Below, in pieces: positions 15,750-16,978 of a stretch of 64,000 nucleotides of DNA. The DNA lies in contig NZ_JXBK01000001.1 in the NCBI RefSeq assembly GCF_000816495.1, forward strand, positions 129,174-193,173. The letters are read 5' to 3'. Under the pieces are notes generated by a model that saw nothing but the letters and a program-made list of their open reading frames with translations, ran no database searches and had not been told where the DNA came from. The position numbers were made by a program, and so were the translations under genes. This stretch comes from Acinetobacter harbinensis. GTDB taxonomy: Bacteria; Pseudomonadota; Gammaproteobacteria; Pseudomonadales; Moraxellaceae. Numbering within the stretch: the stretch's first letter is position 1; each line of letters starts with the position of its first letter.

Positions 15750-15900
15750 ATGCTGCACTATTTTAGAACTTGACATCCTCCCCGACCTAAAGGACGGGGA
15801 TTCCTACTGCTAGACGCTCATGTCCGAGCGCAAGAATATTCAGTGCGGAATTTATATCCCGATCATGGAGCGTACCGCACTCCATGCACTGCCATTCTCT
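15750..15900 (-). ncRNA. Predicted omega RNA (reRNA) of the TnpB element with its guide
   Basis: TnpB elements produce a non-coding RNA from the 3' end of tnpB and the right end; its last 16-20 nt come from the flanking DNA and serve as guide. Here the scaffold would include the CCCCG/CGGGG hairpin at 15780-15799 and end at TCAA (15773-15770). The guide would begin at 15769 and read GTTCTAAAATAGTGCAGCAT. The 5' boundary is a guess. Confidence 0.45.
15780..15799 (-). repeat. Right-end hairpin of the IS element
   Basis: The stem CCCCG/CGGGG plus CC/GG with one mismatch and a four-base loop overlaps the tnpB stop codon. It is the likely TnpA recognition hairpin and part of the omega RNA. The same sequence recurs at the left end. 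Confidence 0.85.
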
Positions 15901-16845
15901 TATTCCAAGTCCTGCTCTACCTTTCGGACTGCTTAGGCGCGAGCCACAGCACGAGCAAGTTTGGGTGGTATAGGCTTCGTTGACTTCTTCAAACAATACC
16001 CTTGCGTTCTCGCATTTATACTTGAGCATTGTTCTTAATGTTGTCCAACTAGCATCCAGTACAGACTTTGCTAATTTAGTCTGTGCGAGTGCCTTAGCAT
16101 TAACATTGCCAACGATAATCATTGCATGTTCATTCACAAGTTTACGTGTGAACTGGTGCAACATATTTTGTCTAATATTTTTGATTTTGGCGTGGACTGA
16201 GCGAACACGGTTCTTATTTTTCGCCCTCTGTGCTATGCCTAGTTTTTGCTCGTACTGGCGATATATTTTTGGTGCTTTAAGTTTTAATCCATCAGAACAG
16301 GTTGCCAAGTCCTTTAAGCCTAAATCTATGCCAATTGATGTTTTACCTTTGGATTTAATCGTCGTGGCATTATCAACAACCAAACACACATACCAACGTC
16401 CACGGCTATCTTCTACGAATGAACCTGTTTTGACATTGTATTTTGAAAGTCCGTAGCTATCCCATAGCTTAAATTGATGTTTGCCATACTGAACGTAACC
16501 ATCGGCATACTTAATAGCAACTTTTTTGAATGGAATCCAACCGAGTGACCGTCTTGCTGATTTCTTATTGCTGACGCGCCATTTTAATTTAGCTTTTTTG
16601 AATTGTTTTCTTCGGGTGACTAATTCAGCAGAAATAGCCTGTATCGTTTGGCTGTGCAAACCACATTCTTTCGATGCGCCCTTAGTATATTTATCAATAT
16701 CGTATGAGCTTAAGAACTCACCCGTCCTTTCAAGGTATTTAAAACCTAAATCATTCGCATAATTCCAGACAAAATTAACCTCAGATGCCAATTGGTCTAG
16801 CACCTTTAAGTTTTTGTCTTTTATGCGTAATTTAAGTGTTTTCAT
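15787..16845 (-). CDS. tnpB: TnpB, RNA-guided RuvC-type endonuclease of an IS605-family element
   Basis: A 352-residue protein. The N-terminal half is the RNA/DNA-binding part. RuvC-I has D174 in IGIDLGLKDLAT; RuvC-III has D328 in LHDRDINSALN; the zinc ribbon is C297/C300 and C320/C323. The place of the usual RuvC-II glutamate (family ILxEDL-like) reads IIVGNVNAKAL, with Gly246 instead; E287 or E290 in FEEVNEAYTTQ could supply the acid. The end GIPVL and the TAG stop lie inside the right-end hairpin, as is typical. TnpB cuts DNA next to a TTAC-like motif under omega-RNA guidance and helps retain the element. Confidence 0.92.
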   Translation of the reverse strand: MKTLKLRIKDKNLKVLDQLASEVNFVWNYANDLGFKYLERTGEFLSSYDIDKYTKGASKECGLHSQTIQAISAELVTRRKQFKKAKLKWRVSNKKSARRSLGWIPFKKVAIKYADGYVQYGKHQFKLWDSYGLSKYNVKTGSFVEDSRGRWYVCLVVDNATTIKSKGKTSIGIDLGLKDLATCSDGLKLKAPKIYRQYEQKLGIAQRAKNKNRVRSVHAKIKNIRQNMLHQFTRKLVNEHAMIIVGNVNAKALAQTKLAKSVLDASWTTLRTMLKYKCENARVLFEEVNEAYTTQTCSCCGSRLSSPKGRAGLGIREWQCMECGTLHDRDINSALNILALGHERLAVGIPVL

Positions 16846-16936
16846 TGCTCAATTTTAGCAGGTTTGAGGTTTAATGTTCAGCGCAGAATACCTAAACGAC
16901 ACTCCCTGTCGTATGACTTACGTCAGTCGCTTATAT

Positions 16937-16956
16937 CCCCGACCTAAAGGACGGGG
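16937..16956 (-). repeat. Left-end hairpin of the IS element
   Basis: Identical 20-bp imperfect palindrome to the right-end copy and in the same orientation, 16 bp inside the left boundary at 16972. Confidence 0.85.
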
Positions 16957-16978
16957 CTTTCCGCTCTACAGGGTAAAA

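Follow-up and report, generated by a model that had tools for sequence, protein, structure and literature searches.

This locus raises the question of how a TnpB protein that has lost the canonical glutamate of its RuvC-II motif could still form a nuclease active site, and of which residue would stand in for the missing acid. The tnpB gene concerned occupies 15787..16845 on the minus strand of the window (the whole 64,000-nucleotide stretch of Acinetobacter harbinensis DNA that was analysed), and its reading frame, encoding 352 amino acids, is intact. The product belongs to the RNA-guided endonuclease TnpB family: it matches the guided_TnpB profile NF040570 with 239.3 bits (curated cut-off 100, E 8.6e-71), and the Pfam entries PF07282 and PF01385 both score above their cut-offs. 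A sequence-only reading of the gene had proposed an active site that is rearranged and not dead, with either E287 or E290 as the replacement acid. The analysis described here makes it highly probable that the protein is the predicted RNA-guided endonuclease of an IS200/IS605-type element, with an alternative RuvC triad composed of D174, E290 and D330. This is an already known kind of enzyme. The arrangement with a relocated glutamate was described in 2023 (Yoon et al. 2023, PMC10711439), as the sequence-only reading had correctly stated of TnpB clades, and the gene is a further, ordinary example of it.

Loss of the canonical RuvC-II glutamate

The residues of the active site were located by a phmmer alignment to ISDra2 TnpB (8bf8), the catalytic triad of which we take to be D191/E278/D361. 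D174, which lies in the sequence GIDLG (a motif of the DΦG type; codon 16324..16326, minus strand), stands opposite the RuvC-I aspartate and is Asp in 130 of 130 distinct rows. G246, in the sequence IIVGNVN (codon 16108..16110, minus strand), stands opposite the RuvC-II glutamate of the ISDra2 segment IIGTEHL, and because it faces that residue the canonical glutamate is truly absent, as had been claimed. The third acid of ISDra2 TnpB, the RuvC-III aspartate, pairs with D330 (codon 15856..15858, minus strand), the second Asp of D328-R-D330. Also present are the segment E286-E287-V-N-E290 and the cysteine pairs C297/C300 and C320/C323 of the zinc ribbon.

The sequence-only reading had taken D174 and D328 as the retained acids; the first assignment stands, whereas the second is two residues out. 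D328 is ruled out as the RuvC-III acid because it is D330 that faces the aspartate of ISDra2, and because D330 is Asp in 131 of the 134 relatives that carry both G246 and E290 (Tyr, Asn and Glu occurring once each), compared with 107 of the same 134 for D328.

An acid at position 290 accompanies the loss

The relatives came from one scan of genome contigs (78 loci) and two of viral contigs (80 and 8 loci), to which family searches covering 150 genomes from the phylum and 59 from the genus added further loci, at most 30 being kept from each; most were gathered by their likeness to the TnpB studied here. The joint alignment has 224 rows, some loci contributing more than one, and 195 of these span the sites of interest. 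They comprise 173 distinct sequences, a count from which the protein itself and the second copies of its own genome's two genes (L220 and L205) were dropped, and in which the canonical TnpB of the same genome is counted once, as L002.

G246 is combined with E290 (codon 15976..15978, minus strand) in 134 of the 173 sequences and with Asp at 290 in one more. Another 36 have the canonical Glu at 246; their residue 290 is non-acidic, namely Pro (19), Arg (8), Ala (5), Gln (2), Ser (1) or Lys (1). The remaining two have neither Glu at 246 nor an acid at 290 (L210 and L221, of which L221 looks misaligned). An acid at 290 and Gly at 246 imply one another in 135 of 135 distinct sequences, and because the two coincide so completely the loss of the glutamate is not attributable to chance or to a sequencing error; as far as the alignment goes, it is clade-wide. 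In a 53-row alignment (A4), D174, E290 and the four zinc cysteines are invariant and D330 is nearly so.

The 173 sequences are not independent, because a single split accounts for most of the alternation between the two glutamates: when 92 rows were placed in a tree, those of the canonical type made up one side of a branch with support 99/96. On this tree two changes are required for the alternative type on account of L211 (G082), which has a very long branch and is perhaps misplaced, and the alternation of E246 and E290 would thus mainly represent one switch that has been retained since. At the level of sequence the loss of the canonical glutamate, the near-invariance of E290 and its alternation with the canonical residue are nevertheless established, as are the element ends described below.

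Three relatives deserve separate mention. L032 (1501-2559), with a full-length reading frame, is the sole relative with Asp in place of E290. L057 (1501-2550) keeps E290, but its RuvC-III residue is Asn, giving DRN instead of DRD; the Guillardia theta Fanzor1 likewise has Asn there, and in it the substitution N658D reduces activity (PMC11423790). L211 itself is a TnpB-like protein that has diverged strongly; residues 246 and 290 are Gly and Glu, the RuvC-III residue is also Glu, and its long branch makes its placement in the tree unsure.

Predicted structure and the published alternative glutamate

A structure model built from 53 diverse sequences (mean pLDDT 90.0, pTM 0.75) superseded an earlier one built from 30 sequences (pLDDT 81.3). 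In this model D174 lies in strand 169–175 and G246 in strand 240–247, E287 falls within strand 284-289 with E290 immediately after it, and D330 is on helix 329-347. The top solved match in a structure search was the mimivirus Fanzor2 9b0l (Z 25.3, rmsd 3.4, 330 aligned). The overall fold agrees with that of the solved TnpBs, the ISDra2 enzyme being matched at Z 25.1 both by 8exa (rmsd 2.6, 302 aligned) and by 8h1j (rmsd 2.9, 322 aligned); SpuFz1 8gkh was also among the matches (Z 11.8, rmsd 5.8, 322 aligned). Taken as a prediction, the model is a tie, fitting Fanzor2 and ISDra2 TnpB equally well. A sequence search reached 9cer, a Guillardia theta Fanzor1 construct, at E 1.5 only, with 9b0l ranked 7.

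Yoon et al. (2023, PMC10711439), working with a tree of about 800 representatives, define an alternative glutamate, Ealt, as a Glu six residues before the CxxC of the zinc finger. They describe its site as topologically distinct yet consistent, locate the Fanzor glutamate six residues before the zinc finger, and recognise two Ealt clades: Fanzors and pro-Fanzors, which have DPG, and a second clade that has D-Φ-G. In the Fanzor SpuFz1, two Mg ions are reported to be bound by E541, D383, N385 and D606 (PMC10432273), of which E541 is presumably the glutamate six residues before the zinc finger. A structural study of three Fanzors assigns the catalytic glutamate to the loop that connects the fifth strand with the TNB domain (PMC11423790). 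This placement fits E290 and does not separate the two types, because it is given in that study for Fz, TnpB and Cas12a alike; the description by Yoon et al. does separate them.

In the protein studied here, E290-AYTTQT-C297 reproduces the published six-residue spacing, which fits E290 only. The spacing tells against the alternative that the third acid is E287 (codon 15985..15987, minus strand), or that the two glutamates share the role. Among the 134 sequences of the alternative type, 118 have Glu at position 287, as do all 30 rows of a closer alignment (A2), but the other 16 have Val (7), Ile (6), Asn (2) or Thr (1) there, whereas position 290 is Glu or Asp in every one of the 135 Gly246 sequences. 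E290 is likewise invariant in alignment A4, from the 90% conservation list of which E287 is absent, and in the model E287 sits inside its strand while E290 directly follows it. A catalytic role for E287, alone or shared, is on this evidence improbable. The sequence-only reading had named both residues and had called the EEVNEAYTTQ segment conserved-looking; this holds for E290 (Glu in 134 and Asp in 1 of 135), and E287, though kept in most homologues, is rejected as the replacement acid on its pattern of conservation. As far as sequence can settle the matter, the residue that replaces the lost glutamate is E290.

Relation to Fanzors and to canonical TnpBs

Judged by its DLG and by E290-x6-C297, the protein belongs to the D-Φ-G Ealt clade as this is described by Yoon et al. 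(PMC10711439). Like the DΦG Ealt TnpBs of that study, it has DLG at RuvC-I and lacks the canonical RuvC-II glutamate, and residue Φ is Leu in all 134 G246/E290 sequences. The paper also prints a regular expression, which is a search device of its methods and not the definition of Ealt, and which is taken here to have spacers of 120-160 and 12-18, the first range being printed without a separator. Applied literally, this pattern matches neither the protein nor any of the G246/E290 sequences (0 of 134); it misses the protein because DLG and E290 are separated by 113 residues and the CxxC pairs by 19, both outside the printed ranges. When loosened to 100–160 and 12–20, the pattern matches the protein and 112 of the 134 alternative-type sequences, and none of the 36 canonical rows. 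The point of difference from the DΦG Ealt TnpBs is thus a DLG-E290 spacer that is shorter than the printed pattern allows.

With Fanzor1, Fanzor2 and the cyanobacterial pro-Fanzors the protein shares the alternative glutamate, and its overall fold is like that of the Fanzor2 9b0l. However, Fanzors and pro-Fanzors have DPG at RuvC-I (PMC10711439), and the combination of DPG with Ealt that marks them is not found in this protein, which has DLG. With ISDra2 TnpB (8exa, 8h1j, 8bf8) it has in common the fold, the RuvC-I and RuvC-III acids and the zinc ribbon, whereas ISDra2 TnpB has the canonical RuvC-II glutamate and the present protein has Gly246; the Glu about 50 residues before the zinc finger that characterises canonical (Ecan) TnpBs is absent from it. 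The same difference is found within the genome itself. The canonical TnpB L002 (C1:478773-479969), also of the guided_TnpB family, has Glu at 246 and Pro at 290 and lies beside a Y1 tnpA, in contrast to the G246 and E290 of its counterpart in the window.

The element, its ends and its predicted guide RNA

The tnpB gene lies inside a recognisable element of 1,203 bp at 15770..16972 (minus strand), with its left end at 16972 and its right end (…GGATGTCAA) at 15770. Among the relatives, a right end of the form GGAYGTCAA was found no more than 90 nt after the stop codon in 46 of the 58 that were read, and the sequences beyond it are unlike. It was not found in L011, L012, L013, L018, L019, L023, L046, L052, L057, L058, L060 and L074, although the right ends of some of these 12 are close variants such as GGAAGTCAA. 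For the left end, 78 loci were searched with patterns built from left ends seen earlier, and 40 could be anchored; in 34 of the 40 the left end follows directly after TTTAT, and the other six (L038, L046, L055, L057, L062 and L073) were anchored at the wrong place. Where the relatives have TTTAT, the element in the window has TTTAC as its target-adjacent motif, beside the left end at 16973..16977 (minus strand).

A hairpin, CCCCGACCTAAAGGACGGGG, lies near the right end at 15780..15799 (plus strand), and the same 20 bases recur as the left-end hairpin at 16937..16956 (plus strand). At up to two mismatches this pattern has two sites in the genome, one per element end. The element thus shows two IS200/IS605 features: each end carries a hairpin, and insertion is on the 3' side of a short, fixed motif. 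A separate hairpin scan, which required stems of at least 6 pairs and called 24 loci, missed the left-end hairpin of the window because its stem has five pairs.

Of 19 same-genus loci fetched at this place, six (L166, L167, L168, L170, L176 and L182) match the joined flanks continuously over the junction, as an unoccupied site would, at 76–81% identity over 37–53 bases and with no repeat; in L167 and L168 both flanks align with no insert between them. Next to the element lie the gene for a glutamate synthase and a 287-aa gene that has no Pfam match, followed by a 3-dehydroquinate synthase gene.

The right end probably also encodes the guide RNA. The predicted omega RNA (reRNA) scaffold, 15770..15887 (minus strand), overlaps the 3' end of tnpB, and its final hairpin contains the stop codon; its 5' end is uncertain. 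The Rfam family HgcC (RF00062) matches 15757-15887 (minus strand) with 33.4 bits and E 1.5e-5, under its gathering score of 50, and 9 of the 16 relatives that were checked have a match in the equivalent position, at E values up to 1 and every time under the gathering score. The region 15770-15990 folds better than shuffled sequences (z = -3.16). It is likely, on these grounds, that this right-end RNA, the last hairpin of which holds the stop codon, is the omega RNA and that it runs into the flank. A literature search for papers pairing HgcC with TnpB returned none.

The predicted guide segment is the host DNA adjoining the right end, directly after …TGTCAA, at 15750..15769 (minus strand), its length of 20 nt being set by convention. 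Its first 16 bases occur in the genome once exactly and twice with two mismatches, and a reversed control occurs at 3 places. On the plus strand the stretch 15754-15769 reads CTATTTTAGAAC. Several genomes of the same genus that have no element there (L166-L170) carry it, conserved, upstream of their glutamate synthase gene. As it is conserved in these element-free genomes, the element may have inserted into a promoter or regulatory region that is itself conserved.

A working nuclease or a dead one

The missing RuvC-II glutamate would also be compatible with a loss of nuclease activity. Nuclease-dead descendants of TnpB, the TldRs, exist, and are marked by the loss of catalytic acids. A non-canonical RuvC triad is found in a Cas12m that silences without cutting (PMC10442227). 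It is therefore conceivable that the protein has become an RNA-guided DNA binder resembling TldR or Cas12m. However, the acids D174, E290 and D330, loss of which would mark a TldR, are present and conserved, the first two being invariant, together with the four zinc cysteines, across 53 diverse sequences and the third nearly so. The gene, moreover, sits inside an element that has both ends and a predicted guide and that is lacking from six aligned same-genus loci, and the identity of its neighbours (glutamate synthase, the 287-aa gene and 3-dehydroquinate synthase) does not suggest a regulatory use. A dead, DNA-binding protein is accordingly very unlikely. That the gene is instead a decaying pseudogene that lost its glutamate by drift has hardly anything in its favour beyond the fact that some relatives are broken, L009 and L069 for instance being in two pieces, and is close to untenable given the intact frame, the same Gly in 135 distinct sequences, and a dN/dS of 0.07-0.17 against 11 hand-chosen intact relatives, which shows purifying selection on the sequences compared, with dS near 1 and thus close to saturation.

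The reading of a rearranged active site, as originally proposed, is therefore retained as the best one, with the conservation of E290 and the published six-residue spacing pointing in its favour. The protein is most likely a working RNA-guided nuclease with a known alternative active site.

Transposase and mobility

Within the element (15770–16972) a tnpA gene was not found. The genome's only match to a Y1 transposase is at C1:478306-478665, far from this element and beside the canonical TnpB. When that transposase was used in a tblastn search, a relative was found in the flanks of 24 of 162 E290-type loci, a lower bound because no flank exceeds 1.5 kb and some are cut short by the end of the contig. 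The 162 include the locus in the window, which has no hit, and a few near-copies, and the hit at L251 is a 46-residue piece. The same search gave hits at 8 of 31 canonical loci. The loci flanked by tnpA include L003, L010 and L011, whose TnpBs are 80–87% identical to the one studied here. Given the Y1 relatives at these 24 loci, the family can be assigned to IS200/IS605 and the copy in the window regarded as a tnpA-less derivative, whereas pro-Fanzors accompany an IS607 TnpA (PMC10711439).

As a copy without tnpA, the element would need an outside TnpA in order to move. The canonical locus of the same genome (L002/L081, C1:478306-479993) is an element of the IS200/IS605 type in which tnpA and a canonical tnpB are divergent; it seems to have TTTAT as its left flank and GAAT…TCAA at its right end, as in the window element. 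Because its ends resemble those of the window copy, its TnpA might move that copy in trans.

Proposed mechanism and significance

In the active site proposed here, position 246, where the earlier strand ends, has exchanged its glutamate for glycine, and E290, which directly follows the next strand, would take over, binding the metal ions from its position six residues before the zinc ribbon. The omega RNA would be made and TnpB would be guided to cut next to TTTAY. Following excision of the element, the empty donor site, TTTAC followed by the guide match, would be cut, and repair would restore the element.

These findings add no new kind of system. They do tie a short TnpB of the Acinetobacter type to the active site used by Fanzors, and a compact enzyme with a predicted guide and target motif is easily tested. 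SpuFz1 is reported to lack collateral cleavage (PMC10432273), and such an experiment would show whether the alternative glutamate alone accompanies that property. It is possible, if doubtful, that the proteobacterial, Y1-TnpA-associated, short-spacer DΦG Ealt TnpBs form a clade of compact nucleases (~350 aa) that escapes the Ealt pattern, perhaps without collateral cleavage like SpuFz1, and that the tnpA-less copies are moved in trans by a resident IS605-type TnpA.

One further observation concerns the left end. In 11 of the 24 loci called in the scan for stems of at least 6 pairs, a TTTAT motif is paired with AAAA 5' of the left-end hairpin. The corresponding pairs are TTTAC with AAAG in the window (16937-16977), TTCAT with GAAA in L073 and TTGAC with CAAG in L055, while other pairs in the scan table misfit or were mis-picked. 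The target motif may thus vary in step with the bases on the 5' side of this hairpin. The TnpA of IS200/IS605 elements uses a guide-sequence code, familiar from IS608, and the pairing of motif and hairpin flank seen here resembles that code.
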